Source: Stenotrophomonas lactitubi | GTDB lineage: Bacteria; Pseudomonadota; Gammaproteobacteria; Xanthomonadales; Xanthomonadaceae | Direction: 5' to 3' | DNA length: 64,000 nt | Assembly: GCF_002803515.1 (NCBI RefSeq) | Contig: NZ_PHQX01000001.1 | Span: 744,001 to 808,000 of the forward strand | Part shown: positions 11,678 to 34,730 of the stretch, in pieces | Layout: each line of letters begins with the position of its first letter | Numbering within the stretch: position 1 is the first letter of the stretch | Notes under the pieces: generated by a model | The model's database searches: none | Told to the model about the DNA's origin: nothing | Seen by the model: only the letters and a program-made list of their open reading frames with translations | Position numbers and translations under genes: made by a program

Positions 11678-11695
11678 GAGTGGGGCGACCTACTC
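11678..11695 (+). promoter_or_regulatory. Palindromic operator-like site
   Basis: GAGTGGGGCGACCTACTC, an imperfect inverted repeat of the element-wide family TGAGTA...TACTCA, followed by ACGAA. It lies about 40 bp before the start at 11,733. Confidence 0.55.
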
Positions 11696-11732
11696 ACGAA
11701 GACCGCTTTAAATAACCCAAGAGACCGTCGCC

Positions 11733-11906
11733 ATGATTGAAAGCCCCACCCGCTCGGCCCGCCCCATCGCTGGCCTTCCTTTCGCGCACATCCCTCCCAC
11801 GGTTCCCGCGTTCCTGCCCGAAGGCAAGCTTCGCCGGCAAGCCCGCCTGGCGCGCGAGCAACGCCACTTCGAGCGCCAGCTGCGCAAGGAGCTGAAATGG
11901 AAATGA
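11733..11906 (+). CDS. Small basic protein, 57 aa
   Basis: Starts MIESPTRSARPIAGLPFAHI and ends in a basic helix (RRQARLARE, RQLRKELKWK). It overlaps the following ankyrin-like gene by ten bases, and the operator-like site at 11,678 lies in its leader. Its end suggests nucleic-acid or membrane binding, but no family is recognised. Confidence 0.55.
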   Translation: MIESPTRSARPIAGLPFAHIPPTVPAFLPEGKLRRQARLAREQRHFERQLRKELKWK

Positions 11907-12361
11907 CCACCGACCGGCGCGCTCAACGGCTTCTGGAGGCCATCGAACACCGCAACCCACAGGCTTTGAAAAGAACCATTGCGGCCATCCACGAGGCACG
12001 TCTGAAGGCTTGGAGGGGCCTGACGGCTTTCCCGTCCTTGGACCACCCGGTGGGGCCCAACGGAATTACCGCTTTCCACGTCGCTTGCATGGCGTGGCAC
12101 GTGAACCAGCATGACCCGGCCAAGCGGCAGTGCTACGACAAGATGGCCGGAATGCTGGCCGAAGCAGGGGCGGACGTGTTTGCGGAGTTCGGCCCGGCAA
12201 AGCAACGCTGGACGATCATTGAAGCGCTGCATGGCGCTACGCCACCGTCTGTCAAAGCATGGATGGCCTCTCAGCCGTTCGATCTGCATTGCTCTGCGTC
12301 AAACACCGCCCACACGATTCGGTGGGACAGCCGTCGTCCAGTCGCCTCGCTGGAAGAATAG
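11897..12361 (+). CDS. Ankyrin-like protein, 154 aa
   Basis: Helical protein starting MEMTTDRRAQRLLEAIEHRN. The segment NGITAFHVACMAWHVNQHDP followed by MLAEAGADVFAEFG has the spacing of ankyrin repeats (TxxH...LL..GAD). Probable protein-interaction protein of unknown partner. Translationally coupled to the small basic protein before it. Confidence 0.6.
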   Translation: MEMTTDRRAQRLLEAIEHRNPQALKRTIAAIHEARLKAWRGLTAFPSLDHPVGPNGITAFHVACMAWHVNQHDPAKRQCYDKMAGMLAEAGADVFAEFGPAKQRWTIIEALHGATPPSVKAWMASQPFDLHCSASNTAHTIRWDSRRPVASLEE

Positions 12362-12454
12362 AAAAGAATCCAAGGGCTGAACGGCCCGAAAGGGTTGCAA
12401 AAACATGCACTTGCGCAATGGCGGCGTCGGGGTAAGTTCGGAGGGAACCCCTAT

Positions 12455-12465
12455 CTACTCACGAA
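12455..12465 (+). promoter_or_regulatory. CTACTCACGAA half-site
   Basis: Single arm of the element-wide operator, ten bases before the ATG of the ParA-like gene. The left arm is degenerate (GGAGGG). Confidence 0.45.
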
Positions 12466-12475
12466 AGGATGCCCT

Positions 12476-13072
12476 ATGCGACTGTGCAACTTCTCACTCA
12501 AGGGTGGCGTCGGCCGCACGACGCTGGCCCTGAATCTTGCCGGGTGCTATGCCCGTGACCCCAGCCTGCGTGTGTTGGTCAACGACCGGGACCCCCAAGG
12601 CGGAGCCTGTGCGTTTGCCTCACTGTCGGACGAAACACCGTTCAGTGTCGGGCGCTCGCGCTCCCCTGGCTTCGACGTGGAGATCACTGACACTCCACCA
12701 CGCCTGCCGGACAACGAAGTGATCCCCGAGGCTGATCTCTACCTGGTGCCCACGTTGCTCGATGGGGCCAGCTTTCTCATCTTTCTGCGAACCGTGGATG
12801 TGCTTGAAAAGAAGGGGAAGCGTTACCTGCCCATCGCCAACCGGGCCAACGAGAAGCGGGCAGCCCATCGACGCCGCCTGGAGCACCCCAAGATGTCGGG
12901 CGCTATCCTGGTGCGGGATCGTGCGTTGTTTGCGGACTGCTACGAGGAGGGAAAGACCGTGTTCGACGCCAACGGCCGCTGGGCCCGGGTGGCCCAGGAG
13001 GAGATCCACGCCCTGGCTGTCCGGGTGCGCGATACCTTGGCCGCTGGTGCAGGCCGGAGGGCTGCGGCATGA
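12476..13072 (+). CDS. ParA-like partition ATPase, Walker A variant
   Basis: 198 residues, start MRLCNFSLKGGVGRTTLALN. The deviant Walker A box reads KGGVGRTT: the signature lysine K9 is present, but the P-loop lysine is replaced by R14. The Walker A' segment ITDTPPRLPDN and a following hydrophobic strand (ADLYLVPTLL) fit the ParA/MinD family. It is shorter than typical chromosomal ParA, as for small plasmid ParA proteins lacking an N-terminal HTH. It overlaps the next gene by ATGA, the layout expected of a par operon. Role: probable maintenance of the element when extrachromosomal. Confidence 0.8.
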   Translation: MRLCNFSLKGGVGRTTLALNLAGCYARDPSLRVLVNDRDPQGGACAFASLSDETPFSVGRSRSPGFDVEITDTPPRLPDNEVIPEADLYLVPTLLDGASFLIFLRTVDVLEKKGKRYLPIANRANEKRAAHRRRLEHPKMSGAILVRDRALFADCYEEGKTVFDANGRWARVAQEEIHALAVRVRDTLAAGAGRRAAA

Positions 13073-13677
13073 TGGAGCTTCCCTTGGTTTCCCTCCCAGA
13101 CCTACCCATGGCCACTCGCAAAGCTCCTGCCAAGAAGGCTGCCACGAAGAAGGCCGTCAAGCGCACCTTGGATGACATCAAGGACGTGACCCATGCCAAG
13201 GCTCGCCGGACCAGCAAAGCGGCAGGCCTTCCGATCGCCCGCATCCCGGAGCATCTGTTGCTGGGGCCGGGCGACTACCCGGAGCGCAAGTCCTACTTCG
13301 ACTACGACGACAGCCAAAAGGCTGGCAACGTGGGAGGCAAGCGGGTTCACATGGTCATGCCCCGATCGGTCACGCTGCACGACTACCGCCGTCGGGAGGA
13401 CGGGCTGCGCCACCACCGGGCCATGGTGACGATCCCGCCAAAGCTCCGCGAGAACATCGCCAAGCTGTTTGGCTTTGACGATTCGGAAGACGCCGGCAGT
13501 GAAGTTGCGTTGACCACCGCTATGGTGGCGTTGGCCGACTACGCGGCGGCCTCGCTCATCAAGGACAAGACGCTGTTGATCGTGAGCTCGCCGGTGGACG
13601 AGCACGCGGAGGACCGCAAGGCCGCCAGGGTGGCGGTGCGGAATCTGGGGATGAGCAAGAACGGAAAGATCTACTGA
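13069..13677 (+). CDS. Putative partner of ParA, Lys/Ala-rich N-terminus
   Basis: 202 residues. After a short lead the sequence PMATRKAPAKKAATKKAVKR is histone-H1-like, suited to DNA contact. The central part (MVMPRSVTLHDYRRREDGLR) and the helical C-terminus have no recognised domain. Coupling to the ParA gene by a four-base overlap suggests it is the centromere-binding partner (ParB role), although there is no ParB motif. An in-frame ATG at 13,108 is an alternative start. It is closed by a hairpin at 13,698. Confidence 0.65.
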   Translation: MMELPLVSLPDLPMATRKAPAKKAATKKAVKRTLDDIKDVTHAKARRTSKAAGLPIARIPEHLLLGPGDYPERKSYFDYDDSQKAGNVGGKRVHMVMPRSVTLHDYRRREDGLRHHRAMVTIPPKLRENIAKLFGFDDSEDAGSEVALTTAMVALADYAAASLIKDKTLLIVSSPVDEHAEDRKAARVAVRNLGMSKNGKIY

Positions 13678-13697
13678 CCCTCACAAACAGGGGAACG

Positions 13698-13723
13698 AAG
13701 AAAGCGGCCATAGCCGCTTTCTT
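13698..13723 (+). terminator. Hairpin terminator of the par operon
   Basis: Perfect 11-bp stem AAGAAAGCGGC / GCCGCTTTCTT with a CATA loop. The T run is within the stem arm. It separates the par operon from the convergent HNH gene and could work in both directions. Confidence 0.7.
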
Positions 13724-13901
13724 GTAGCTGTGGATCATCCCGTGGGCAGAGCAAAAGCAGCTAAAAAAGCGTCCCCTGGCGGGAGCAGGCATACGCCTAC
13801 GGCGCGGAGAACCGTTGATTGCACTTCCGGATCCACGCGGAGGGCGTTTCTATCATGAGCAATGGTTCGATTTGTCCGATCAGCCGGAGCTTTGGGTCGG
13901 C

Positions 13902-14783: not shown

Positions 14784-14827
14784 GCCGGATGGTGTTCGAA
14801 GTTGGGTGCGAAGCTAATGGTAGTGGA

Positions 14828-15883: not shown

Positions 15884-16649
15884 GAGAGCACTCCTGAAAC
15901 GACAGCAGGTGGATCATTCATGGGCCAATGGCGGTGAATGGAGGCCATGGCGCGCACCCTCGTTTGACTAAAACGAATTGGTGCGAGGGATTTGCGGGTT
16001 CCTTCCAGTGGTTCTTTGGCTGCCCACGGAAGATTCGGAAAGCACGGTGTCGGTGCATCCAATGGCACTGCACACGTTTGACTAAAACCAACGTGGCTTG
16101 GGTGTCGTGGGGCGGTGCAGCGGGTGGGCGAGGGCAACCTGTCCTGGGGATCCGGGGCAATGCGAAACGGTGGGCTGAAAAACTTTGCACGGATTCCCGG
16201 GGTGGGGCATCGGTGGGCGTGAGGGGTGGAAGAGCGGGAGCGTTGCGTGGGCATGGCGTGGGCGGCGGTCCTGTGGGGCGAGGGGGCGTAGACCAGCAAT
16301 AGCGCAGCTGGGGCAACACGCAAGGGGCCGCCGAAAAGCAACTGCAAGAGCCCAACATGGGTGGAAGCATTGTCGGCAGTGGCAGAGAAGCAGGAGCCCG
16401 GAAGGTTCCCCAGAGTCGTCATACACATGACGCACTGAAGTGGGAGTGCGTTTTTCGCCCAAGAATCGCTGTAACGCCAGCCGAAACCTCAATGCAATCA
16501 AGGCCTGACCATGTCACCACCGAATGGAGACAGTGTCAGTGCTTGTTAGCTCGTTTGGCCCATGTTTTTCAGGCTCCTGACGTGGGGCCTTGCCAACTCC
16601 GAGATTCGCGGTATCGGTGGAGTAATCCCGAAACGGAGTTACTCGACCG
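15884..16649. other. Gene-poor 766-bp stretch with paired repeats
   Basis: No convincing frame. It holds two copies of CGTTTGACTAAAAC (15,961 and 16,075), each within a small inverted repeat (CCCTCG...CGAGGG; CACGTT...AACGTG), and the promoter-like TTGCCA-14 nt block at about 16,590, before an operator-like palindrome. Placed before an RHH gene on a conjugative element, it is a reasonable place to look for oriT, but no known nic sequence was recognised. Confidence 0.4.
16620..16644 (+). promoter_or_regulatory. Palindromic operator before RHH gene
   Basis: GAGTAA-N13-TTACTC inverted repeat ending six bases before the ATG at 16,650, so bound protein would also cover the ribosome site. Member of the element-wide TGAGTA...TACTCA family. 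Confidence 0.6.
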
Positions 16650-17051
16650 ATGGCGTTCGTTCGTCAAAACGTAAACCTCGACCCTCGGCAACTGAAACTT
16701 GCTCAGCGGCTCGCCCGTGAATCGGGCAGCGCGTTCAGCGCCTACGTGCGAGAGGCGCTGGAGCGACACAACACCGCCACGTCAGTGGTGAGCGTGTTGG
16801 AGAACGCCAACGCTCAGCTGGAGCGCCTCATCGACGATCTGCGGGAAGAGAACGCGCTGTTCCGGAGTGCGCTCCAGGAAGATCTGCGGCGGCTGCGAGA
16901 CGAAACGAAGGCGGAGCAGGACAGCGCCATCCAGCGCTACGAAGAAGCGCTTCGCAAGGTGGTGACGGCGGCCCTCTCGCAACCCTCTCCCAAAGGTTCT
17001 GGTGCGGCCAAGGTGCCCGCAGCCGGACCCATGACTGCTCCACGCACCTAA
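16650..17051 (+). CDS. RHH-type DNA-binding protein with coiled coil
   Basis: 133 residues. N-terminus MAFVRQNVNLDPRQLKLAQR then SAFSAYVREALERHN fits a ribbon-helix-helix fold. Residues about 50-110 form a heptad-like coiled coil rich in Glu/Leu. In MOBF systems such as R388 an RHH protein (TrwA) binds oriT and represses the transfer operon; this gene is a candidate for that role but lies 10 kb from the relaxase. Its own palindromic operator touches the start codon, consistent with autoregulation. Confidence 0.65.
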   Translation: MAFVRQNVNLDPRQLKLAQRLARESGSAFSAYVREALERHNTATSVVSVLENANAQLERLIDDLREENALFRSALQEDLRRLRDETKAEQDSAIQRYEEALRKVVTAALSQPSPKGSGAAKVPAAGPMTAPRT

Positions 17052-17079
17052 CTTTCCCCCACAGCAGGAGATCCATCCC

Positions 17080-18964: not shown

Positions 18965-19000
18965 TCCCCCTTGCGCATCCGCGGATTCGATCTAGAAAGA

Positions 19001-19016
19001 AGTGACCTACTCACGA
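19001..19016 (+). promoter_or_regulatory. Operator-like site and promoter block
   Basis: AGTGACCTACTCACGA contains GTGA-N5-TCAC and the CTACTCAC arm. Upstream, TTGCGC-14 nt-TCTAGA (about 18,971-18,996) has the same spacing as the blocks before the genes at 16,650, 31,503 (reverse) and 34,472 (reverse). The next ATG is at 19,030 with GGGGGAG before it. Confidence 0.55.
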
Positions 19017-19029
19017 ATAAGGGGGAGAC

Positions 19030-22367: not shown

Positions 22368-22375
22368 TGCGGATA

Positions 22376-22403
22376 GGCAAGGGGGCTCGCCCCTAGCTGC
22401 CCT
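22376..22403. repeat. Left inverted repeat of low-GC cassette
   Basis: 28 bp, starting GGCAAGGGGG and ending CCCTAGCTGCCCT. The reverse complement of 24,247-24,274 matches it except for the central five bases, which are themselves reverse-complemented (CTCGC versus GCGAG). It starts nine bases after the ATPase stop codon. Confidence 0.65.
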
Positions 22404-22443
22404 TGTTTAGTGCGCACACAGCTACCCAATCCGGAGACAAACG

Positions 22444-22839
22444 ATGCCCCAAATATTTCGAAAGATCTGGCATTGCCTAACAAGCAAATGCCGAAACTGT
22501 GGCCTCACGGCCTCAGATCCTGAATTGCGCGCGATTTCCCCACTTGACTCGACTGACCACGCAGGCAACCTGAAATCGTGGACCCCACACAGAAGCCAGA
22601 CCGACAGCTGGCATATCAGGGGAACTGAAATGAAAAATTTTGCCACTGCTAACGCGAATGAGCGTATCCATCGAGACATTTGCCAAGATTTTTCTTTGAA
22701 GATGTGGAAGCAAGACGTTCCAGACATGACTGAAAAGTCGGTGGTTGATGAGTTGCTGGATGCGGCTTTGAAGTCTGCCAAGAGGCTGGGCATCAAGCCC
22801 AAAATTGACCAGAACGGGCCCATCCATCACGGGGACTGA
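22444..22839 (+). CDS. Low-GC hypothetical protein, 131 aa
   Basis: Starts MPQIFRKIWHCLTSKCRNCG, with CGGAGAC seven bases upstream. It has a CxxxxC..C cluster at its N-terminus and a helical C-terminus (SVVDELLDAALKSAKRLGIK). Base composition is distinctly more AT-rich than the flanking conjugation genes. The next gene starts four bases after its stop. Function unknown; it belongs to the cassette bounded by inverted repeats. Confidence 0.6.
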   Translation: MPQIFRKIWHCLTSKCRNCGLTASDPELRAISPLDSTDHAGNLKSWTPHRSQTDSWHIRGTEMKNFATANANERIHRDICQDFSLKMWKQDVPDMTEKSVVDELLDAALKSAKRLGIKPKIDQNGPIHHGD

Positions 22840-22842
22840 TGG

Positions 22843-23355
22843 ATGGGTCGTATCAAGCAGGGACGAAGGACAAAGCTTTCCTCTGAAACAGAGGATCTTC
22901 TGCGCTGGGCAATTAAAGAACAGTATGCTGATAAGCTGATGTCTGATTTGCTTGATGCCGGATACACTGCGGATGACGCACTCAAAATTGCTGCCGACCT
23001 TTCGATTGACAAAAGAATCGAAAAACATATCGAAACGCGAATCGAAGACCTGTGTATTAAGGATTTTGCGAGCGCAGTTAGGGAGGTGATCGCTGAGGCG
23101 CAGGATGAGAACAATGGTCACTTCTCCGCATTGCGAAAAAGGCTCTCTTTTCGTGGGGCCTTCTGGGGGCAGGCTTTGAGCTCTTTCTTAATCGCATGCC
23201 TTGGATTTGTTCTCATATTTTTTTGCGCAATTATGTGGAAGGCAAACAAAGACACGAAGTTTGGGCGATGGGTAGAAAGAGTTGCCCTTATCAGCGAAGT
23301 TGATAATCATTCGTCCAAGCCACCCACAACCACAAGTGATTCTCCAGCCCCTTAA
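22843..23355 (+). CDS. Low-GC membrane-anchored protein, 170 aa
   Basis: Starts MGRIKQGRRTKLSSETEDLL. Helical and charged up to about residue 105, then one membrane helix (ALSSFLIACLGFVLIFFCAI) near residue 110-130 and a basic/polar tail. Codon use is AT-rich. The last 65 bp overlap the 3' end of the convergent transposase, so the present C-terminus may have been produced by insertion of that element. The partner gene is the one four bases upstream. Confidence 0.6.
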   Translation: MGRIKQGRRTKLSSETEDLLRWAIKEQYADKLMSDLLDAGYTADDALKIAADLSIDKRIEKHIETRIEDLCIKDFASAVREVIAEAQDENNGHFSALRKRLSFRGAFWGQALSSFLIACLGFVLIFFCAIMWKANKDTKFGRWVERVALISEVDNHSSKPPTTTSDSPAP

Positions 23356-24136
23356 GGGTCTTGGTGGTCGTCCAGGTCTTCCGCCCCAATCGGGCCAGGT
23401 CATTGCGCATTTTCGCGAACGCCAAGTTGATGGCGAACAAGGGGTCGTAGTCGGGCACGGTCGGAGACCGGAGCTTGGCGTGGGTGATCCCTGGCAGCGT
23501 TTGCGCTACCCACTTTCCATAATTGGCATCCCCATCGCTGGCCAGCGTCGCGCCAGCCTTCATTCCAATGGCCGCTTCGGAGAGCACTCGGGGAATCACC
23601 TGGGGGCGGTCATTGATGACCCAGCGATTGCCTTCAATGCCTTGCCGCATGCTGGAAGGCTTACGAGCCACCCCGAACGCCAGCACCTCTCCCGTCTTGA
23701 CGCGAACCACCACCGACACGGAAACCTGCTTCCAGCGGGCATGAATGAAGGTCTCCAGCTCATCGAACATGGCGTAACGAGTGCTTAGAGTGGTCAGGTG
23801 CTTTGTGTGATGGGCTTTGGCCTGGGCGGCCAAATGGGCCACCTTGCGTTCCACCGTGCTTTGGCTGCACCCCAGCACCTCAGCCATCCGACGCATGGTT
23901 ACGCCTGACACGGCCAGCTCCAGGACCTTTCGATTCAACTCCGGCCGGTGCTGGCCCCGCGTGGGCTTGGCCTGCGAAGAAGAAAACCACGCCCCACATC
24001 CTCGGCACTCGTAACGAGGCACGGGTTGGCGGTTGTGCCGCGGCCTGTAGTAACCACGCTTCCGGTAAAACCCCGCCGGCGGCACCTGGTGGTAGGCGCA
24101 CTCGGCATTTGGGCAGCAGGGTCGTGGGCTTCTCAT
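23291..24136 (-). CDS. Transposase-like protein with zinc ribbon
   Basis: 281 residues. N-terminal zinc ribbon: CCPNAECAYH and YECRGCGAWFSS. Next a helix-turn-helix (LAVSGVTMRRMAEVLGCSQS TVERKV in two parts), then an integrase-like core with strands VSVSVVVRVKTGEVLAFGVA and LASDGDANYGK carrying candidate acidic residues. This resembles IS1/IS1595-type transposases. GC content is high compared with the two genes it abuts. Terminal repeats of an IS could not be identified with certainty. Confidence 0.7.
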   Translation of the reverse strand: MRSPRPCCPNAECAYHQVPPAGFYRKRGYYRPRHNRQPVPRYECRGCGAWFSSSQAKPTRGQHRPELNRKVLELAVSGVTMRRMAEVLGCSQSTVERKVAHLAAQAKAHHTKHLTTLSTRYAMFDELETFIHARWKQVSVSVVVRVKTGEVLAFGVARKPSSMRQGIEGNRWVINDRPQVIPRVLSEAAIGMKAGATLASDGDANYGKWVAQTLPGITHAKLRSPTVPDYDPLFAINLAFAKMRNDLARLGRKTWTTTKTLKGLENHLWLWVAWTNDYQLR

Positions 24137-24246
24137 GATCCCAGAACGTAGCGCGGATCTAGGTAAAAGTTAACAAACGTTGGAATGCTATCCCAATCCA
24201 GCCCTTTAGATTGGGCATCCAGGACGGCCCCGGTGAGCATCCAACG

Positions 24247-24274
24247 AGGGCAGCTAGGGCTCGCCCCCCTTGCC
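24247..24274. repeat. Right inverted repeat of low-GC cassette
   Basis: Inverted partner of 22,376-22,403. Seven bases outside each repeat lies the same nonamer CGGATTGAT (22,360-22,368 and 24,282-24,290) in direct orientation, which could be a target duplication or coincidence. Confidence 0.6.
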
Positions 24275-24328
24275 AAACCCACGGATTGATCAACGATGAA
24301 CCCATTCACCCCAGCGGAGGAAACAAAC

Positions 24329-24905: not shown

Positions 24906-24949
24906 GCGTCTTGACGTCCAGTTTGATGGTGCTTTACTGGTTGTGTAAC

Positions 24950-24967
24950 GAGTAGGTAGACCTACTC
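24950..24967. promoter_or_regulatory. Perfect palindromic operator
   Basis: GAGTAGGTAGACCTACTC: two 8-base arms around AG, a perfect inverted repeat and the best example of the element-wide operator. It lies 23 bp before the ATG at 24,991, downstream of TTGAC-type promoter sequence. Confidence 0.7.
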
Positions 24968-24990
24968 ATAAAACCAAAAGGAAAGCCACC

Positions 24991-25194
24991 ATGTCCACGT
25001 TGTTCAATGCCCTCAAAGACTTCGCTTTCGAAAACGCGGTTCCACTGCTGACCGGCTTGTTCCTGCTGATCGCGGCCTTCGCAGCGGCTGTTCTCGTCTA
25101 CCCCCCGGCCGTTCCGGTTCTGCTCAAAGTGGTGGCCATGGCGGTGGCGGGCTTTGTGACCATCGGGGTGGTGGTCCAGAGTTCCTTCCGGTGA
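24991..25194 (+). CDS. Small two-helix membrane protein, 67 aa
   Basis: Starts MSTLFNALKDFAFENAVPLL. Two hydrophobic helices (LLTGLFLLIAAFAAAVLVY and LLKVVAMAVAGFVTIGVVV). Ribosome site AAAGGAAAG upstream. Directly controlled by the perfect palindrome at 24,950. Overlaps the next small gene by GTGA. Size and topology recall small pilin-like or holin-like proteins, but no assignment is possible. Confidence 0.7.
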   Translation: MSTLFNALKDFAFENAVPLLTGLFLLIAAFAAAVLVYPPAVPVLLKVVAMAVAGFVTIGVVVQSSFR

Positions 25195-25345: not shown

Positions 25346-25432
25346 GGGTCAGTAGTCCGGTAACGAAGCCGGGGCAGTCTGTAAAACCGCTGGTTCACTC
25401 CCCTGCAGGTTCAAGTCCTGCCTGACCCACCA
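25346..25432 (+). tRNA. tRNA-Tyr-like gene (anticodon GTA)
   Basis: 87 bases with encoded CCA. The acceptor stem GGGTCAG/CTGACCC is perfect, the discriminator is A, and the T arm GCAGG-TTCAAGT-CCTGC is perfect. The anticodon loop CTGTAAA gives GTA, on a stem GCAGT/ACCGC with one A-C mismatch. A variable region of class II length fits bacterial tRNA-Tyr. The D arm is unusual: a CCGG/CCGG stem with loop TAACGAAG lacks the canonical GG. It is therefore either a divergent functional element-borne tRNA or a decaying copy. Confidence 0.7.
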
Positions 25433-25482
25433 TTTCTGCGTGTTGGCTTGACGGCCAGCGATTCAACGCTACAACCATGGGG

Positions 25483-26304
25483 ATGGACACTCAAGAATCC
25501 CTGTTGCGCCTTTTGCGTCCCCTGGACCTCCAACGAGCGGAGGCCTTGGCGGCCGCGCTCGCTCGCGAAGCCGGTGCATCCAAAGGCCTTCACGATTCGC
25601 AAGTGTTGGCGCGCGCCCACGCCCTGAGCGTTTCCCCTGTCGAGGGTCGGTTGGGCGATCTGGTTTGGCAGGTGCGCCAGCGGGAGCACGATGATGCGCC
25701 CCAAGTGGACCTGCGCTGGGGCTTGCATCGCCTGGGGTTCGACGCGCCCACGCGGGCCTCCACCCGGGACCTGGTGCGTGCTTACGAGAGGCGCTTGGCA
25801 GACCGTGACGAGCCGATGGTTTACAGCACCTTGGCAGAGAGGGTGGTTGGGTTGTCCATGGCAGAGCACGCCTCGCTCTTCCAAGGCATGGCGATGGCGG
25901 TGGAGGAAGCGCGGGCACGGAAGTCCGATGCAAACCGGTTGCGGGAGAACGCACCGTGGCAGGGCTGGCTCGTGGGGGCGTCCCGGGCGGGCCACGAAGC
26001 AGCACTGCTGGCCTGCATCAGCATGGGCGCGGACGCCCGGTTGCCCGATGTGAGCGGCAACACGCCCCTGCACCACGCGGCCCGGTTTGGTCACGCCTCG
26101 CTGGTCACGCCTCTGGTTGAAGCGGGCTCCGACGTGGCGGCCCTCAACGCCCACGGGTGGGCACCGCTCCACCTTGCCGCCCTTCACAAGCACGCCCGGG
26201 CCTGCCTCCACCTGATGGCCCACGGCGCCAATCCAGAGCAGCCAGGGTGGCGAGGGCGGACCCCGACGCGCATGCACCGACATGAGCAAACCCAAGCCCT
26301 TTGA
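25483..26304 (+). CDS. Ankyrin-repeat protein
   Basis: About 273 residues; ATG at 25,477 or 25,483. The N-terminal half is helical without known domain. The C-terminal half has clear ankyrin repeats: AALLACISMGADARLPDVSG, NTPLHHAARFGHASLVTPLV, GWAPLHLAALHKHARACLHL and MAHGANPEQPG. It overlaps the coupling protein gene by 23 bases and is probably cotranscribed with it and the relaxase. An adaptor role in transfer or modulation of host proteins is possible; neither is shown. Confidence 0.75.
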   Translation: MDTQESLLRLLRPLDLQRAEALAAALAREAGASKGLHDSQVLARAHALSVSPVEGRLGDLVWQVRQREHDDAPQVDLRWGLHRLGFDAPTRASTRDLVRAYERRLADRDEPMVYSTLAERVVGLSMAEHASLFQGMAMAVEEARARKSDANRLRENAPWQGWLVGASRAGHEAALLACISMGADARLPDVSGNTPLHHAARFGHASLVTPLVEAGSDVAALNAHGWAPLHLAALHKHARACLHLMAHGANPEQPGWRGRTPTRMHRHEQTQAL

Positions 26305-28159
26305 CGCGCTGGGTGACGTGCCCGGCAGCGTTGCGCCTTCCCAGCCGGTCCGATACTGGCACCGCGCCGTTCTTGCCGGTGCATTCGTTTTTGGCTTGGC
26401 CTACGTGGGGAGCATGGGCGTTGCCTGGCTCTTGCCGAATCCCGATGGCTCGCTCATCCGTTTTGCCGATGCCTTAAAAGGCGGACTGGTGACCGCCTAC
26501 CACTTCCTGACCGTCGGCATCTCGGCTCGGGCTCCGGCACGGGAGTTCATCGAACTGGTGTCCTACCACCACCCAGTGGCGACGTGGTCCCGGATCGGGG
26601 TGTCGCTTCTGCTGGCGGTGGGCCTTGGCCTTCGCATGTTCCTCAAGGCAGCTGAGCCGGTGAGCAACACTTGGCACCTGTCCGGACCGCGGCTATTGGA
26701 AGGAAAGGAGGCCGTGGACGAAGCCCGGCACCGCTCGATAGCCCCTAAAGACGCCGAGGCGGATCCCTTCGCCCTGTCCCTCCACCCCGATCTGTTGCTG
26801 TCAAAAAAGCACTGGGCGCGCCACGTCTTGATCACCGGTTCGGTGGGGTCGGGCAAGAGTGTCATCCTCAAGCACATCCTGGAACAGCTAACGCGACTGA
26901 AGAGCGCAAAGTTGTTCCTTTACGACATCAAAGGCGACTTCACGTCGATCTTTAAAAGGCCCATCATCGTGTCGCCCTTCGATGCGCGCTCCCACGTGTG
27001 GGACGTCGCCGCCGACGTGCGGACCCCGACCCAGGCGGCGGCGTTTGCTGCCTCGATCATCCCGGAGGGCGACGGGAACGCCAAGTTCTGGACGATGGCC
27101 GCGCAAGACCTGTTGATCGGGTGCGTGCGCGAACTCCAGAACACCCGGCCTGGCCAGTGGGGGTGGCCCGATCTGGCGGCCTTGGTGCGCCGCCCGGCTG
27201 CAGAGATGGCCGCAGGCATGCGCCCGCATTACCCCCGCGGCGCCGCACTGGTGCGTGACCCGGAAAGCCAGACCACGTCCAGCGTGCTGTCTTCCTTGGG
27301 GGGCTTCACCCGCCTCATCGACGATCTGGCCACCGCATGGCCCAAGGTTGGCAAGCGCCGTTTCTCGATGACCGAGTGGATACGGGACGACTACAACGGG
27401 CGCAAGCAGGTCATCGTGCAGTCCGGACCCGATCCGACCCTGACGAAGGCCTACATCGCCGCCATGATCAACGTGGCCGTGCCGGATCTCATTGGGCCGG
27501 GCTTGCCGGACAACGAGGGCGGGCGTGGGCTCTACTTCGTGTTCGACGAGCTGACCAGCGCTGGGCGCTTGAACGTCGATCCCTTGTTGGCGTTGGGGCG
27601 CAGCAAAGGCGTGGTGGCCATCATGGCGGTCCAGGATCACTCCCAGATTGAACTGGTCTACGGGGACAAGGCCGCCCAGGCCTTTTCATCGCTGGTGGGA
27701 ACCCACGTGGTGTGCCAAGTGCAGATGGGGGCGACCCGGGACAAGCTGGCCAGCCAGCTCGGCAAGCGAAAAATCGCCTGGCGTGGGCACGAGGACAAAG
27801 CCCAAGTCCACGAAGAAGGCCGCGCCTTGGTATCCAGCGGTGAGCTCACCGACCGGCTGGGCTTCCGAAAGGGCAAGCGCTACGGTCCCGAGAGGTGGGG
27901 CATCGAGGCGATCGTGCAGATGGGCGGGGACGTCCTGTTGCTGACATGGCCCGGGAAGAGCCATCCAGCGGTTCGCGAGGGGCAGGTGGCCGCTGCGTGG
28001 ACGACCAAGCCAGCCGGCCCGGTGGCCGAGGGTGAAGCTGAATTGCCCCCTTTGACCGGTGACGCGTTGGCCTTCCCAACCACCGCAGAAGGCATCGACA
28101 CGGTCCAGCGGGTGCTGACCATGACACCCGAGGAAATCGACGCGCTTTTCAAGCGGTGA
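26282..28159 (+). CDS. Type IV coupling protein, TraD/VirD4-like
   Basis: 625 residues. Two N-terminal membrane helices (about 28-50 and 104-121), Walker A GSVGSGKS at 186-193, LFLYDIKGDF at 211-220, Walker B LYFVFDELTSAGRL at 417-430, then VVAIMAVQDHSQIE as the arginine-finger/sensor region. This is the standard coupling ATPase architecture that delivers the relaxase-DNA complex to the secretion channel. It is followed by the MOBF relaxase 64 bp downstream, matching the TrwB-TrwC order. Confidence 0.9.
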   Translation: MSKPKPFDALGDVPGSVAPSQPVRYWHRAVLAGAFVFGLAYVGSMGVAWLLPNPDGSLIRFADALKGGLVTAYHFLTVGISARAPAREFIELVSYHHPVATWSRIGVSLLLAVGLGLRMFLKAAEPVSNTWHLSGPRLLEGKEAVDEARHRSIAPKDAEADPFALSLHPDLLLSKKHWARHVLITGSVGSGKSVILKHILEQLTRLKSAKLFLYDIKGDFTSIFKRPIIVSPFDARSHVWDVAADVRTPTQAAAFAASIIPEGDGNAKFWTMAAQDLLIGCVRELQNTRPGQWGWPDLAALVRRPAAEMAAGMRPHYPRGAALVRDPESQTTSSVLSSLGGFTRLIDDLATAWPKVGKRRFSMTEWIRDDYNGRKQVIVQSGPDPTLTKAYIAAMINVAVPDLIGPGLPDNEGGRGLYFVFDELTSAGRLNVDPLLALGRSKGVVAIMAVQDHSQIELVYGDKAAQAFSSLVGTHVVCQVQMGATRDKLASQLGKRKIAWRGHEDKAQVHEEGRALVSSGELTDRLGFRKGKRYGPERWGIEAIVQMGGDVLLLTWPGKSHPAVREGQVAAAWTTKPAGPVAEGEAELPPLTGDALAFPTTAEGIDTVQRVLTMTPEEIDALFKR

Positions 28160-28223: not shown

Positions 28224-31058
28224 ATGATCAATTGCACCCGCATCGATGCCCGCGGCCACAACAAGAACAACGGAAACATGTTTGACTACATGCTGGCCAC
28301 CGAGCGCCTGGCCATCGACAGCGCCGTGGCCTATTACGCCGGCAGCGGTCCCGATCCGCGGCAGACGCTCAATTGGGGCGGCAAGCTCGCCGCCGAACTC
28401 GACCTGGAAGATCAACCGGTCACCCGAAGGGTGATGGAGTTGCTGGGCAAGGGCTTTTCACCCACCGGAAGGCCGTTGTGCAAAAACGCGGGAGAGGAGC
28501 CCCAATTGGTCATCAAGACGGATCGCATGGGCAACGTGCGACTGGACGACGATGGCAAGCCAATGGAGAAGTGGGAGGGCGGCCATCGGGTCGGGTTTGA
28601 TCTGACCATCTCCGCCCCGGGGGACGTGAGCGTGGCGTTTGCGCTGGCGGATGATCGCGAGAAGCTGGCCATCCTGGAGGCCCACCGCCAGGCCTGCGCC
28701 GTGGCCATGCGCTACATCGAAAGCAAAGTGGAGACCCGGCGCGGACAAGGAGGCGTAGACGTTATAGGCACGGCGGGATTGGTATGGACAGCCGCCGATC
28801 ATGTCAGCAACCGGAACGTGGAACCCGACCTGCACACCCATCACCTGGTCTACGGGATCTCGATGGGCGAGGACGGTCAGTGGGGCACCTTCGACGCCAT
28901 CGAAATCTACCGTCACCGGCACGCCGCGGATCACCTTTACAAAGTCGAGCTCTACGCCGCGATGAAAGCGCTGGGCTATGGGATTCAGCGGGAACGCGAG
29001 GTGGACGTGATGGGGCACGAAACGGGCCAGACTCTCACCACGATTGCCGGCATCGACCGGGAGCTGGTGCTTCAGACGAAGACCCGCCGCCAAGAAATCC
29101 TGGACTACGTCAAGGAACACCCCAACGCCAGCCACGACGAGGCCTGCAAGGCCACCCGCAAAAAAAAGGAAGAACCGCCCTTCGAGCAGGTGGTCAAGGA
29201 CTGGCAGCAAACCTTCGCCAACATCGCTAAAGAGCACCCGGAGCTGGTTCCCACCACCCAGTCGCTCAAGCAGACGAAAGGCCAACACCTGGACCCGCAT
29301 ACGTTTGACGAGGTTTTGCAGCGCATGCACGAAAACGAGGCGATGTTCTGCGAGCATGACCTGGTCCGGGAGTTGGGGATGGAGTTCGCAGGACAAAAAA
29401 ATTCAGAAGAAATCCTCAGGATGGTGAATGAGTTCACCGAGCAGGACGATCTGGTGCGCGTGAAAGCCGAATACCTCCACGAAGACGACCGGGGCGTTCG
29501 GTTGGCGCGCAAGCACCGGGAGGATCGCTTCTGCGCCACCTGGATGGTCGAATGGGAGGCCGAGATCATCCGCCGCTCGAAAGAGCGGGAGAACGAGACG
29601 GACCTCAAGCTGTTCCGCTCCACCGTGGATCGGGAGATCGCCGCTTACGAGAAGCGCAAGGGCTTTACCCTCACAGAGGAGCAGAAAGCCGCCATCGGTC
29701 ACCTCACCTACGGCACGGCCGGTGTGGGGGTCATGTCGGGGTTGGCCGGCACCGGCAAGACCACCGTGGCCGAGGTCTACAAACAGTGCTTCGAAGCCGA
29801 AGGAAAGCAGTTGATGGGCTTGGCCGTGTCGGGTAAAGCCGCGGCCAAGCTAGAAGAAGAGTCCGGAATGCCCTGCATGTCGGTTGCAAAGTTCTTTTCC
29901 CAGCTCCGGCAGGGCAAGGTTGCTCTGACGAAGAACGTTGTGGTGGTGCTCGATGAAGCCGGCATGGTGGCCACCGATGACACCTTGAAGCTCATGACCT
30001 ACTGCCAGGGGGTGGGCGCCAAGCTTGTCATGCAGGGAGACAGTGACCAGCTTCAGCCCATCGCTGCGGGCAACGGCTTTGAGCTGGCGAAGATGGCCTT
30101 GGGGGACAAGAAACTGACCGAAATCCGCCGGCAGAGGAACGCTGATGACCTGGTCACCGCCAACAGCTTCTACGAGCGGGATGACGAGGGAGAGGTCAAG
30201 GACATGCGCCGCGGACACCGCAGCCGCAAAGGCACATTCGATATGGGCGAAGATATCCTGAACAACCTCAAGCAACGCAACTGCATCGACGACTTTGGCA
30301 CGGAAAGCCAGGCCATCAAAGCGTTGGTGGAGGATTACTTGAAAGACAGGACGCCCATGGACGAGAAGCTGGTCTTGGCCCACACGCGCTCTGAAGTCAA
30401 AGCGCTTACCACGGGCATCCGAACGGGGCTCCAGGAGCAAGGCGTGCTGGACAAAGAGGAGTTCACCTTCCGATCGATCGTGAAAGGCCAATGGGAAGAC
30501 CTGACGCTCTCCCGCCGCGACCGTGTGATGTTCACGGCGACCAACAACGACTTGGGTGTCATCAACGGCACCGAGGGCACGGTGGAGAGTATTCGGAAGG
30601 ACAAATCCGGTGGCTACGACCTGGTGGTGCGCATCGACTCTTCGAACCCGAATGAAGAAGGACGCATCCTGGAGTTCAACACCAGCGAGCACAACGCCTT
30701 GGCCCACCGGTATGCCATGACCGTTCACAAGGCGCAGGGGCAGGGGAAATCCGAGGTTTACCACTTGGCCACGAACATGGGAATGCTCGACCAGCAGTCG
30801 GCGTTGGTGGCGTTCACTCGCCTCACCAAAGGCAGCTACCGCATGTTTACGACCGACGAGATGATGGATCGCATGGCCGAGCGGCTGGGCACCGAACGGC
30901 ACAAGGAAATGGCGCTGAGCGTGGGACTGTCCAGCAAGCAGGCGGACCCGGTGCGCAACCTGGTCCAAGAAGTGGAAGCGCTGCTGGCCGGGTTGAAATC
31001 CGAAACCGAGGTGCCAATCTCGAACGCGGAACGGCGCGAGATGAGGCTTACCCGGTGA
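28224..31058 (+). CDS. MOBF relaxase-helicase, TraI/TrwC-like
   Basis: 944 residues, ATG at 28,224 with AAGGGAG upstream. The relaxase domain (1-300) has the candidate catalytic tyrosines in VAYYAG (37-38) followed by WGGKLAAELDL, the FDLTISAPGDVSVAFAL block (125-141), and the metal triad H193, H204 and H206/H207 in LHTHHLVYG. The helicase domain has Walker A GLAGTGKTT at 506-514, Walker B VVVVLDEAG (572-580) and the C-terminal TVHKAQGQGK motif. It nicks oriT, stays bound to the 5' end and unwinds the transferred strand. It overlaps the reverse GIY-YIG gene by 11 bases. Confidence 0.95.
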   Translation: MINCTRIDARGHNKNNGNMFDYMLATERLAIDSAVAYYAGSGPDPRQTLNWGGKLAAELDLEDQPVTRRVMELLGKGFSPTGRPLCKNAGEEPQLVIKTDRMGNVRLDDDGKPMEKWEGGHRVGFDLTISAPGDVSVAFALADDREKLAILEAHRQACAVAMRYIESKVETRRGQGGVDVIGTAGLVWTAADHVSNRNVEPDLHTHHLVYGISMGEDGQWGTFDAIEIYRHRHAADHLYKVELYAAMKALGYGIQREREVDVMGHETGQTLTTIAGIDRELVLQTKTRRQEILDYVKEHPNASHDEACKATRKKKEEPPFEQVVKDWQQTFANIAKEHPELVPTTQSLKQTKGQHLDPHTFDEVLQRMHENEAMFCEHDLVRELGMEFAGQKNSEEILRMVNEFTEQDDLVRVKAEYLHEDDRGVRLARKHREDRFCATWMVEWEAEIIRRSKERENETDLKLFRSTVDREIAAYEKRKGFTLTEEQKAAIGHLTYGTAGVGVMSGLAGTGKTTVAEVYKQCFEAEGKQLMGLAVSGKAAAKLEEESGMPCMSVAKFFSQLRQGKVALTKNVVVVLDEAGMVATDDTLKLMTYCQGVGAKLVMQGDSDQLQPIAAGNGFELAKMALGDKKLTEIRRQRNADDLVTANSFYERDDEGEVKDMRRGHRSRKGTFDMGEDILNNLKQRNCIDDFGTESQAIKALVEDYLKDRTPMDEKLVLAHTRSEVKALTTGIRTGLQEQGVLDKEEFTFRSIVKGQWEDLTLSRRDRVMFTATNNDLGVINGTEGTVESIRKDKSGGYDLVVRIDSSNPNEEGRILEFNTSEHNALAHRYAMTVHKAQGQGKSEVYHLATNMGMLDQQSALVAFTRLTKGSYRMFTTDEMMDRMAERLGTERHKEMALSVGLSSKQADPVRNLVQEVEALLAGLKSETEVPISNAERREMRLTR

Positions 31059-31503: not shown

Positions 31504-31512
31504 GGTCTCTCC

Positions 31513-31534
31513 GTGAGTAAAACGACCCACTCAC
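31513..31534. promoter_or_regulatory. Palindromic operator before GIY-YIG gene
   Basis: GTGAGT-N10-ACTCAC, nine bases from the ATG at 31,503. Upstream on the reverse strand is TTGCCA-14 nt-TCTATT, nearly identical to the block before the autotransporter gene. Confidence 0.65.
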
Positions 31535-31642
31535 GAATAGATCAGAATCTGGAGTTGGCAAGCCTGCTGCGAAGGACGTGAGAGGCCACACGTCGCTTGC
31601 GTGTAATCTCTTCGCAGTTCATGGCGAGCATGGGGCGGGCGA

Positions 31643-32425: not shown

Positions 32426-32796
32426 GTTTGGGCGGTTTCGGCTCTGCCGGATCGGAGGCGCTGCGGATAGCAGCAGCGTTCCAAAGAAAAAGCCCGGGCT
32501 GGGCCCGGGCTTTTCATATCGGTCAACGGGGAGCATGGCTCACCGCGCGTTGACCTGTGTAATGTAAGGAGCGCGCTTGCTCCTACAGCAATTGTCGTGT
32601 CGTAAAGCACCTTGAGGCCCACGCCAAGGGCTCTGCAAAGCGGGTGTTTCTTGGTGCGTGTTGCAATCGTGTTGCTGTTACTTGTTTCTTTATTCATTGA
32701 GGTATACCTGTAATTGTTAGTGCTGCATGTGTCATCTTCCTTTGCGTCGTGGTTGGTCAACCATTCCCTAACGGCTTCTAGGGCAATGGCAAGCAT
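32422..32796 (-). CDS. Possible small membrane protein
   Basis: Weakly supported reverse frame. From ATG 32,796 it reads MLAIALEAVREWLTNHDAKE, then an Asn/Thr-rich region and a second hydrophobic stretch (VLYDTTIAVGASALLTL). The ACTACTCACG half-site lies directly before the ATG, but no ribosome site is visible, and its last 30 codons run through the terminator at 32,487. AT content is higher than in its neighbours. It may be a degraded gene. Confidence 0.25.
   Translation of the reverse strand: MLAIALEAVREWLTNHDAKEDDTCSTNNYRYTSMNKETSNSNTIATRTKKHPLCRALGVGLKVLYDTTIAVGASALLTLHRSTRGEPCSPLTDMKSPGPARAFSLERCCYPQRLRSGRAETAQT
32487..32514. terminator. Bidirectional terminator
   Basis: AAAAAGCCCGGG-CTGGG-CCCGGGCTTTT: GC stem flanked by A and T runs, able to end transcription in both directions. 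Confidence 0.85.
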
Positions 32797-33014
32797 TGGC
32801 GTGAGTAGTGCTACGGCAACGGTCATTACTGCAGGCGGGATTGTCAGTCCGGCTCCTACACTGCTGAGCGGTGGAGATGTTACCAGCTTCCAACGCCTTG
32901 GTCAATCGTAAGTTATTGTATATAAATACAATTTTAATGAATTGACGCCACGAACAAGGGCCCCGAAGGGCCCTTGCCGAGATACGATCACCTCCTTTTC
33001 GCCGCTGAGATTCG
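32515..33014. other. 500-bp intergenic stretch between convergent genes
   Basis: Contains only the doubtful reverse frame above and, at 32,955-32,976, a perfect nine-base-pair hairpin CAAGGGCCC-CGAA-GGGCCCTTG, 39 bp beyond the autotransporter stop. That hairpin may end the autotransporter transcript, although it has no T run. Base composition around 32,600-32,940 is AT-rich. Confidence 0.5.
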
Positions 33015-34472
33015 TTACCAACCGATGGCCCAGGCTGCGCCCACGGCCGTGTCCTGTCCGCTGCGGGAAACCCCGATCGAGAAAGCCGATGGGGATCCGC
33101 GTGGGGTGGTCACGTCGCGGGTGTAGCCGATGGAAATGGCGGCTTGGCCGCTGCAGCCACCGACGCCCACGGCCAGGCGGTTGCGGTTCTCCCCATGGAT
33201 GGCCGACGTTGAGGTGGCCATCTGGGCGTTGGCTTGGGCCATGGCGCAGACACCGCTCACCCGCTTGTCGAGCTGGCGGAAACGGCGGTCCGTCAGGTTC
33301 CAGCGGTCGTCTTGCTGCCGCTGGTAGTCCCACAATTGGCCACCGTTGATCGCGTCCGTGGACCCAGGAGCGATCGCCCCTGCAGCCACCCCAGTTACCC
33401 GCTGGTTGCCGGCGTTGATCCCGGATCGGGTGACCGATGGGCCGCCTTGGACAGTGAAGCCGTCGCTGTTGTGGATGGCCTTGGCCACTTGGACCGAGCC
33501 CTGCTCGGAAAGCTCAATGGTGTCTTTCAAGGCAACGGTTTGGGTGCCGTCCCCGTTGTCCGTGACCTCGATGTTGGCCCCGGCCACCGCGGTGCTGCTT
33601 CCGCCATCCTTGCCGTCTTTACCGTCCTGGCCTGCGGGACCTTGCGGACCGGTCGGACCTTGCGGGCCCTGCGGGCCGGTGGCGCCACCACCGCCGCCAG
33701 GGTTCTGCTCCAGCTGGTGAACGCGCCCGTCGAGATCGTAGATAGCGCCGGCAACGGTGCTGTAATGTTTCCCGCTGATCAGCTGGTAGTTCGGTGCCAC
33801 GATCACACCGTTCACTACGGTGGCGCCTGCGCCCAAGTTTTCTGTCATGTGGCGCAATTGCCCCACAGTTGCTGCGTCGAATTCATCACGTCCGTCTCGG
33901 ACGTTGGTCAGGCGGCGACGTTGGATCGTGTTGCCGATAGAAAACTCGTCGGCCTCAACGCATTCCGCGCGGCCTCCGATAGCAACACAACCGTCAGCAG
34001 TTCCTCTCGCTGCTGTTCCGAAAAGCACCATGTTGCTGCCGGTTCCTTCGACGCTGGACCCTGCAACGATGTTGTTGGTGCCCCTGATTTGATTGTTAAG
34101 GCCGTGAACGTTGTTGTTAGCGCCCTCCACGTTGTTGAGCCGGCCAACAATATTGTTGCCGGCTCCCGAGGCGGGGTTCACGTCGTTGGAGCGGTTGCCA
34201 TGACCAACTATGACATCCGACGTGTCGAATTCGTTACCGTTTCCTACGATGACCGCGTCGGCGGCAGGAACAAGTCCAGGATCTCGCTCACCGACGCAGC
34301 GGTTTCCAACACCTACTGAAACATGATTCAAGAAGTCGATGGGTGACTCAGACGTGCAGTTAAGCGGGGTATCGCCAACGATGGTCGAGTCGACATGGGA
34401 TTGGGCATGTGCGGTTGCCATCCCAGTGATGACGCTAGCGAACAGCGCGATGTGTGCGAGGGATCGATTCAC
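33015..34472 (-). CDS. Trimeric autotransporter adhesin with collagen-like segment
   Basis: 485 residues, GTG start with AGGAGG upstream. Signal peptide 1-23 (ends AHA). Residues 80-180 are Asn/Gly-rich head-type repeats. YadA neck motifs lie at 187-206 (LTNVRDG...DAATVGQL) and 358-380 (RVTGVAAG...DAINGGQL). A collagen-like GPQGPQGPTGPQGPAGQDG stretch is at 266-284. The C-terminal anchor, about 395-485, ends in the aromatic W expected for outer-membrane insertion. Such proteins form trimeric surface stalks for adhesion or aggregation. The promoter region has an 11-G tract (reverse strand) and a perfect palindromic operator. Confidence 0.9.
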   Translation of the reverse strand: MNRSLAHIALFASVITGMATAHAQSHVDSTIVGDTPLNCTSESPIDFLNHVSVGVGNRCVGERDPGLVPAADAVIVGNGNEFDTSDVIVGHGNRSNDVNPASGAGNNIVGRLNNVEGANNNVHGLNNQIRGTNNIVAGSSVEGTGSNMVLFGTAARGTADGCVAIGGRAECVEADEFSIGNTIQRRRLTNVRDGRDEFDAATVGQLRHMTENLGAGATVVNGVIVAPNYQLISGKHYSTVAGAIYDLDGRVHQLEQNPGGGGGATGPQGPQGPTGPQGPAGQDGKDGKDGGSSTAVAGANIEVTDNGDGTQTVALKDTIELSEQGSVQVAKAIHNSDGFTVQGGPSVTRSGINAGNQRVTGVAAGAIAPGSTDAINGGQLWDYQRQQDDRWNLTDRRFRQLDKRVSGVCAMAQANAQMATSTSAIHGENRNRLAVGVGGCSGQAAISIGYTRDVTTPRGSPSAFSIGVSRSGQDTAVGAAWAIGW

Positions 34473-34498
34473 GGGATGGCCTCCTGGGTCTGAATTGA

Positions 34499-34516
34499 GT
34501 GAGTGTGTGCACTCAC
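34499..34516. promoter_or_regulatory. Perfect palindromic operator before adhesin
   Basis: GTGAGTGTGTGCACTCAC: seven-base arms around TGTG. On the reverse strand it follows TTGCGC-14 nt-TCTATT and sits 27 bp before the GTG start. Confidence 0.65.
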
Positions 34517-34544
34517 GAATAGATCAGATCCTGGAATGCGCAAG

Positions 34545-34555
34545 CCCCCCCCCCC
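34545..34555 (-). repeat. Homopolymer of 11 C (G on the gene strand)
   Basis: A run of eleven C immediately upstream (gene-wise) of the CTTGCGCATTCC promoter block of the adhesin. Such tracts vary in length by slippage. Confidence 0.8.
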
Positions 34556-34709
34556 AACGAAACCTCCCGGCGCAACGGCAGGAGGACCGTTGAGCCGGGA
34601 AGCGGTGGGGCCGACTTTTCCCCACCCCTGTTCTTCTACGTCAGGGAAAAGATTCCGCAAGCCCCCTTGCGCGTTTTCGATTCTCCGCTTGCATGGATGT
34701 ATCGCTCAT

Positions 34710-34730
34710 GTGAGTAAGGAGGCCTACTCA
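34710..34730 (+). promoter_or_regulatory. Operator overlapping ribosome site and start codon
   Basis: TGAGTA-N8-TACTCA, in which the spacer holds the AAGGAGG ribosome site and the right arm ends at the A of the ATG at 34,730. Bound repressor, or the RNA hairpin itself, would block initiation. Confidence 0.65.

Follow-up and report, generated by a model that had tools for sequence, protein, structure and literature searches.

A dispersed operator family in a chromosomal integrative element of Stenotrophomonas lactitubi and a ParA-linked candidate for its repressor

Introduction

Does a single regulator read the inverted repeats that stand before functionally unrelated genes of a chromosomal integrative element in Stenotrophomonas lactitubi and, if so, which protein might it be? 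The window considered here is a stretch of 64,000 nucleotides, bases 744,001-808,000 of the 4.2-Mb contig of the source genome (G000; 4,868,064 bp). The element spans ~693.5-779.6 kb of that contig (~86 kb), and its part in the window runs from 1 to ~35.5 kb. Positions are those of the window unless a genome is named. An original prediction, made from the letters of the window, held that palindromes built on TGAGTA...TACTCA serve one regulator for the whole element, and proposed as binders an XRE protein and two ribbon-helix-helix (RHH) proteins. The operator family is upheld by the comparisons below, in a redefined form, and the candidate now preferred for its regulator is a different protein, encoded directly downstream of a ParA gene.

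Results

Operator sites and their specificity

The core of the operator is an 18-bp dyad, GAGTR-N8-YACTC, lying within a wider consensus TTCRTGAGTAGG-N4-CCTACTCAYGAA; 33 copies in 7 elements give the symmetric consensus TTCATGAGTAGGTCGACCTACTCATGAA. In the G000 genome the pattern GAGTR-N8-YACTCA occurs at 5 distinct places, all of them inside the element, and the backwards control gives 0. With the spacing left free from 0 to 20, 16 distinct places are found genome-wide. The element has 6 of them, five with N8 and one N4 place overlapping an N8 site; the 10 outside it all have spacings other than N8. The corresponding strand hits, 23 against 20 in the backwards control, are no overall excess, so that only the N8 spacing stands out. 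The bare hexamer TGAGTA was dropped as a signal, since its 9 occurrences in the window, against 5.9 +/- 2.5 expected, are not a significant enrichment.

A first position weight matrix (PWM), for which identical sites had been merged (48 sequences, both orientations counted), found no match of at least 2 bits in the 48 kb beside the element. Because this matrix had been trained on the G000 sites too, a second, cross-trained matrix was derived from elements of Lysobacter, Luteimonas and a metagenome-assembled genome (MAG) alone. It scores five G000 sites at 22.7-32.7, among them a less regular sixth member of the family beyond the window, at G000 704,166; in 60 simulated elements the best score was 19.0 and 2 of the 60 reached 15. 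The test is not fully independent, as the training sites are largely orthologous to those tested.

Named hosts of related elements are Stenotrophomonas sepilia, S. maltophilia, Lysobacter chinensis, Luteimonas aestuarii (G203) and one MAG. Of 30 distinct dyad places in six relatives, 28 are within the element stretch or at its end. A stricter pattern, GAGTRGG-N4-CCYACTCA, matches in 6 of 395 Xanthomonadaceae genomes, four of which host this element family, the other two matching at unrelated places. The background was gauged in nine other genomes with diverged elements (omitting G160, which is the same genome as G201): GAGTR-N8-YACTCA occurs there at 10 distinct places, 0-3 per genome, with 0-3 in the backwards control, and one of the 10 (G100:C86) is less than 10 kb from a relaxase gene. 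The scan of the element and its relatives bears out the prediction in part: five element sites outscore all simulated elements, and six relatives carry the same dyad. That the operator family is real and specific to the element is, on these sequence comparisons, nearly certain.

Individual sites are given in Table 1. Inverted repeats of this family stand before the starts at 11,733, 24,991, 31,503, 34,472 and 34,730, as had been proposed; the repeat before 16,650, counted with them at first, is more widely spaced and forms a conserved motif of its own, and was removed from the family. The half-sites claimed before 12,476 and 19,030 are both there as right halves, and the palindrome at 24,950-24,967 is indeed a perfect 8-2-8. 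A perfect 7-4-7 is present at 34,499-34,516, but this register is broken in G198, G199 and G202, which keep GAGTG-N8-CACTC, and it was given up in favour of N8. Taken on its own, the 34,492 site is within chance range by the cross-trained matrix; its N8 register is what the relatives keep. The operator at 11,673 is retained in G199, G200, G201, G203 and G283, and that at 31,510 in all seven other elements of the same class that were read there (G198, G199, G200, G201, G202, G203, G283). The half-site at 18,990 is conserved in G198 and G283, and CCTACTCAT stands there in G200 and G203. At the end corresponding to the weak dyad at 35,513, the G201 element has a strong site (27.3).

Table 1. Operator sites, promoter-like boxes and regulator genes in the window.
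Feature	Position	Strand	PWM score	Cross-trained score	Remark
Full operator before 57-aa open reading frame (ORF) at 11,733	11673..11700	+	30.8	26.6	GAGTGGGGCGACCTACTC
Half-site in promoter of ParA / 13,069 operon	12454..12465	+		5.1 only (at 12,438)	TCTACTCACGAA
Degenerate site before 19,030	18990..19017	+	9.4	11.1	right half only, CCTACTCACGAA
Full operator before 67-aa ORF at 24,991	24945..24972	+	34.9	32.7	perfect 8-2-8 core
Full operator before GIY-YIG nuclease gene (start 31,503, reverse)	31510..31537	-	30.5		overlaps -10-like TATTCG
Operator before YadA-type adhesin gene (start 34,472, reverse)	34492..34519	-	22.1	13.5
Full operator before M15 peptidase gene at 34,730	34707..34734	+	31.4		right arm runs into ATG
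Weak dyad, right end of element	35513..35540	.	6.5	11.8
Wide-spaced repeat before 16,650	16619..16644	+			GGAGTAATCCCGAAACGGAGTTACTC; outside family, separate conserved motif
Promoter-like box before 16,650	16588..16613	+			CCTTGCCA-N16-TA
Promoter-like box before 19,030	18969..18994	+			CCTTGCGC-N16-TA
Box before 34,730	34667..34694	+			TTGCGC-N16-TTGCAT
ParA-family ATPase	12476..13072	+			Pfam AAA_31, CbiA above cut-off (scanned as longer ORF 12,395-13,072)
Candidate operator-binding repressor, 202 aa	13069..13677	+			lysine-rich N-terminus; strand-helix-helix C-terminal part
XRE regulator, earlier candidate	1113..1601	-			Pfam HTH_3; judged not the operator binder

Change of operator class among related elements

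For the comparison of elements, ORF lists were thinned by overlap and blast rows below 150 nt discarded; G005 and G364 were omitted from the later comparisons. Elements whose relaxases are 44-53% identical have no GAGTA dyad around the relaxase gene and carry GGGTA-N8-TACCC instead, N8 being the commonest spacing. Around the relaxase gene there are five such sites in G152, two in G115 (one with R for A) and two in G189; G115 also holds two looser mixed matches, and G152 one more strict GGGTA place on another contig. The GGGTA class is found at orthologous genes in G115, G189, G152 and G283b (described below). Sites of this kind lie before the ParA gene in G115 and G189 and before the orthologue of the 19,030 gene in G152, with degenerate counterparts in G115 and G189. 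Another is 51 nt upstream of the peptidase ORF in G115, and G189 shares its sequence. The G152 site at 25,481 directly precedes a 119-aa ORF of a different kind, not the adhesin gene. At the positions of 11,733 and 24,991, G125 has an N10 class, GGGTAGG-N6-CCTACCC, wider by two bases; operator variants precede its ParA gene and occur at one further place, the fourth. G100 has GAGTG-N8-CACTC before a gene adjoining an adhesin match. In scans of whole genomes for the GGGTA class the backwards control gives 0-6 hits per genome and exceeds the pattern in several (6 against 4 in G283), so that the argument here rests on the location of the sites, not on their number.

Two diverged elements of the family share one chromosome in the single-contig genome G283 (G283:C1), at 1.35-1.43 Mb and 1.47-1.55 Mb. 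Element A has five GAGTA sites, with one further match elsewhere in the genome. Element B (G283b) has two strict GGGTA sites, one at the 11,733 position and one before the GIY-YIG gene, and there are none elsewhere in the genome. Element B also carries a mixed site, GAGTGGATCGATCTACCC, common to G071, and two looser matches, and the separation of the classes is thus not absolute. The swap of one class for another at promoters that are not linked is the trace expected of a trans-acting regulator that has changed its specificity; this change as a set, together with the two classes in one chromosome, would imply that the regulator is borne by the element. One regulator for several unrelated products of the element is well supported by the element-specific motif, its fixed spacing and its replacement as a set.

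A ParA-linked candidate for the regulator

As the host genome has the motif nowhere but in the element, its regulator is expected there too. The best candidate is the product of the unannotated gene at 13,069-13,677, which lies directly downstream of ParA in an operon with an operator half-site in its promoter; from the sequence evidence we put the probability that it is the operator-binding repressor of the element at about 0.55. The gene or a homologue is present in 13 element stretches at E <= 5.1e-30 (G100 has a weak one), and a search of the 395 family genomes gives strong homologues in 10 (11 matches), with eight more at E 0.01-0.09. ParA and the 13,069 homologue are adjacent in G199, G200, G201, G203, both elements of G283, G115, G189, G152, G071 and G125; no ParA was seen before the weak homologue in G100. 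The ParA protein itself scores 60.9 bits against NCBIfam ParA_partition, under the cut-off of 180. A full dyad lies in the par promoter of G115, G189 and G125 and a degenerate one in that of G152; for the half-site at 12,454-12,465 of the window we propose autoregulation.

Gene and operators are also missing together in some places. A 40-kb stretch of G141 has neither a 13,069 homologue nor a convincing operator, and G010, G057 and G167, which have relatives of the relaxase, give no 13,069 match, the only GGGTA-class place among them being on another contig of G057. Three operator-bearing stretches lack a 13,069 match (G198, G202, G071); those of G198 and G071 stop short of the region, and G071 has the gene on another contig.

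The segment RAMVTIPPKLRENIAKLFG...TTAMVALADYAA of the 13,069 product has the look of a strand-helix-helix unit. AlphaFold models of the trimmed domain give a short strand (25-27) and helices at 35-45 and 53-76, with a block-mean pLDDT of ~69-81 over residues 31-70. The predicted strand reads LRHHRAMVTIPP in all six aligned proteins of the GAGTA class and KRTQRSMITIPP (twice), ERAHRAVITIPP, VRTERTMVTVPP and ARVERTMVTVPP in the five others aligned. At residue 115 the same six proteins have H, the five have T, T, A, T and V, and G125, which was read separately, has T. No ParB/KorB domain was recognised, and the product and four of the five homologues scanned have no Pfam match, the fifth having two weak unrelated ones far under the cut-off. 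With ParA, the 13,069 product would likely belong to the ParA-RHH partition class (ParF/ParG, delta/omega type).

Several observations weigh against this protein. The GAGTA set, including the window, has just a half-site in the ParA promoter. G202 keeps three operators, yet the 40 kb read there contain no 13,069 gene: all that lay between the equivalents of G000 718.4 and 773.0 kb is gone, other regulator candidates included. G350 has the gene (94%) and no GAGTA-class site genome-wide; its locus (G350:C2, ~70-84 kb) is a decayed remnant in which most element genes are lost and one loose GGGTG match remains. AlphaFold2 models of the product have a mean pLDDT of 41.0 and 58.6, no Pfam, PDB-sequence or credible Foldseek match was obtained for it, and an in-register hhalign match to a Pfam-recognised RHH protein has a probability of 6.5%. 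Finally, the covariation of strand and operator amounts to roughly one clade split, because the six GAGTA-class proteins are at least 85% identical to the reference; few independent events lie behind the pattern at residue 115, and other genes of the element follow the same phylogeny.

The operators might instead be bound by another protein of the element: a small RHH protein encoded left of the window (G000 741,443-741,568), the RHH protein at 16,650, or a DNA-binding protein that has gone unrecognised, several conserved element proteins being without a Pfam match. The small RHH protein is recognised by Pfam, and its strand YVQMAV is invariant in six elements, five of them of the GAGTA class. 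However, it has no convincing counterpart in G115, G189, G152 or G283b and a weak one in G125 (E 0.025), and in the GAGTA-class elements scanned there is no matrix match directly before its gene or before that of the 16,650 protein. The latter has the wide-spaced repeat of Table 1 before it, perhaps as its own operator, and no counterpart was detected in G115, G189 and G152. This alternative is rather unlikely. Two further proteins were rejected as regulators: the RHH protein at 4967-5530 is just 33-37% alike in G200, G201 and G203 despite their having the same operator class, and a WYL protein has a good match just in G000 and G201 among the compared elements. The binders named in the original prediction, XRE (1113-1601) and RHH (4967-5530; 16,650), find no support; the type of the XRE protein does not track the operator class. 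As a separate observation, the G115 stretch from 64,093 has GGTGTAG-N12-CTACACC after a promoter box similar to that before the 16,650 repeat.

Position relative to promoters and proposed mechanism

At the sites read, an upstream box TTGC[GC][CA] is followed after 16 nt by a -10-like hexamer starting with T; at 11,733 and 24,991 the box reads TTGACA, TTGACT or TTGACG. The operator core starts inside the hexamer (GIY-YIG gene of G283b), directly after it (31,503 and 34,472) or at a distance of 10-17 nt beyond it (11,733, 24,991 and 34,730). Operators that lie on or downstream of a -10 box, or abut a start codon, normally bring about repression. Dyads on or after the -10-like box, one of them at the start codon, fit a repressor. 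Control by an element-borne repressor appears likely, with considerable confidence.

What the sequences show is an operator family, how specific it is, where it lies and how it changes class; that it serves repression, which protein reads it and what would trigger derepression are inferred. An element-encoded dimeric repressor, most likely the 202-aa partner of the ParA ATPase at 12,476, would bind the 18-28 bp dyad across the -10 and start region. At least six promoters would be covered in this way, five of the window and that at G000 704,166, and two more through half-sites. RNA polymerase would be blocked, and the target genes would stay low while the element is resident. Targets would include the genes for the GIY-YIG nuclease, the YadA-type adhesin, the M15 peptidase, a glycine-zipper protein and small proteins of no assigned function, and probably the 19,030/TraG-like operon, as well as the repressor's own operon. 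Derepression might follow entry into a cell without the repressor, or titration of the repressor by extra copies of the element.

Activation by the partition-linked protein is an improbable reading of the same sites. Partition or RHH proteins are able to activate conjugation genes: the ParB of NAH7 is reported to activate such genes (PMC12421886), and the RHH protein TprA to activate a wide regulon of the integrative and conjugative element (ICE) PAPI-1, acting with NdpA2 against MvaT (PMC8565334), where it is not described as a partner of ParA. The dyads of the present element, on the other hand, overlap the -10-like box or follow it, and one abuts a start codon. A main role of the sites as a dispersed centromere (parS), with secondary effects on transcription, is very improbable: the ParA gene does adjoin that of the candidate binder, and the motif is in the par promoter, but the sites occur singly over ~75 kb, each near a promoter-like box, and the matrix scan, which covered the operator motif and no other kinds of par repeat, found no array at par.

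The dyads could also be RNA hairpins in 5' leaders, several being self-complementary and downstream of the presumed start, and the symmetric A-to-G difference between the classes would preserve RNA pairing as well; this reading is hardly plausible, as the sites within an element share GAGT/ACTC itself, which is more than pairing asks, some sites overlap the -10-like box and single half-sites occur. Least plausible of all is the XRE protein, a typical HTH_3 protein of the element of the sort that regulates many ICEs, since its counterpart in the Lysobacter element (G201) is 38% identical and is preceded by its own palindrome, ATTTGCCATATTGGCAAAT, while the GAGTA operators there are the same, GCCA..TGGC palindromes likewise precede the XRE gene in G115, G189 and G283b, and a sequence other than a ATTTGCCATATTGGCAAAT-like palindrome precedes it in G000, G283, G200 and G203; XRE type and palindrome thus vary independently of the operator class.

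The upstream box is not confined to operator-bearing genes. TTGCGC or TTGCCA also stands before operator-less genes, the relaxase gene included, where the -10-like part is poor, and the two are interchanged between some orthologues. Repeats of CCTTGC[GC][CA]-N16-TA were noted in the window at 2,854-2,879, 16,588-16,613 and 18,969-18,994, and at G000 704,144, 708,639 and 722,316. The pattern CYTTGCSM-N16-TA has 6 of its 20 genome places in the element, with 65 places genome-wide in the backwards control. An element-wide promoter type is possible.

Gene content of the element and other observations

The element joins a TrwC relaxase (28,224-31,058), a TrwB-type coupling protein (26,282-28,159; both by Pfam) and a tyrosine integrase (Phage_integrase, G000 693,691-695,427), the combination by which a MOBF integrative conjugative or mobilisable element is recognised. 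The integrase gene is near the left start of the element and we assign it to the element from its place. The right end (~779.6 kb) is approximate, being set by homology that stops near window position 35.2 kb and by the last element gene at 35.5 kb. As for a complete type IV secretion apparatus, as self-transfer would need, a Pfam scan of a subset of the ORFs of the element gave no VirB4-type match. The element also encodes ArdC, a TraG-like protein, an S24 peptidase together with a UmuC-type polymerase, a restriction-modification pair, usher and chaperone proteins, and nucleases.

The S. maltophilia SJTL3 copy (G202:C1) is a deletion derivative in which the 718.4 and 773.0 kb equivalents are directly joined; its relaxase is truncated and three operators are left. 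The stretch 22,394-24,257 of the window is missing from G198, G200 and G203, whose alignments join straight across. It has 47-nt inverted arms near its ends (22,371-22,417 and 24,233-24,279) and contains an ORF on the reverse strand that matches Sigma70_r4 weakly, and looks like a cargo insertion. Three 177-nt direct repeats (3,492-3,668, 4,197-4,373 and 6,059-6,235; the later copies 82% and 76% identical to the first) are probably duplicated small genes. A tRNA-Tyr called by ARAGORN at 25,346 was rejected, as Rfam gives it no support. At a locus of G005:C23 without any genes of this element (58,400-58,520 and 78,800), inverted CTACTCACG repeats follow a tRNA-like 3' end and precede an integrase-like gene; CTACTCACG resembles an operator half-site.

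Discussion

A literature search, with most subscription papers outside its reach, found no description of this element family or its operator, and comparison is therefore with systems that share parts of the arrangement. KorB of IncP-1 plasmids (RK2) is reported to be a partition-linked protein which, with KorA, co-represses operons through repeated operators (PMC11790492, PMC4889941). The likeness is in repeated operators serving several operons of one mobile element; KorB, however, is a CTPase sliding clamp, whereas the 13,069 product has no Pfam match and the element here is chromosomal. The IncP operators are unrelated to its dyad.

A second parallel is StbA of R388. This segregation protein is reported to repress its own promoter strongly and to act as a repressor at several promoters of establishment and conjugation genes too, within a repression network that gives a burst of transcription upon entering a new cell (PMC3937220). 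R388 differs in being a plasmid, and the parallel with StbA is drawn from function. R388 carries a TrwC relaxase (MOBF/TrwC), and the repeats that StbA targets differ from the dyad of the element.

RHH partners of ParA are ParG of TP228, which binds short boxes and represses its own operon (PMC7308502), and ParB/omega of pSM19035, which also controls copy-number genes (PMC9499535). Both bind arrays of boxes, whereas the present element has single dyads over ~86 kb, mostly before genes other than those of partition, and the RHH fold of the 13,069 product is putative. The box of ParG is an ACTC box.

Tentatively, a family of chromosomal elements in the Xanthomonadaceae may use the DNA-binding partner of ParA as an element-wide repressor, with the dispersed dyad as its operator and perhaps its centromere; drift into classes (GAGTA or GGGTA; N8 or N10) may then allow co-resident elements to be controlled independently. 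This would tie partition to the control of transfer in integrated elements, the published examples found being mostly plasmids. The joint change of a regulator and its whole set of sites is a long-standing question, and a natural series of operators that differ by one symmetric base, and once by spacing, together with sequenced candidate regulators, would offer material on such a change of specificity. It would also give a compact model for how an ICE-like family silences its genes and distinguishes itself from a related element in the same cell. If true, the operator classes would represent a regulatory insulation that acts, for integrated elements, like immunity or incompatibility groups.

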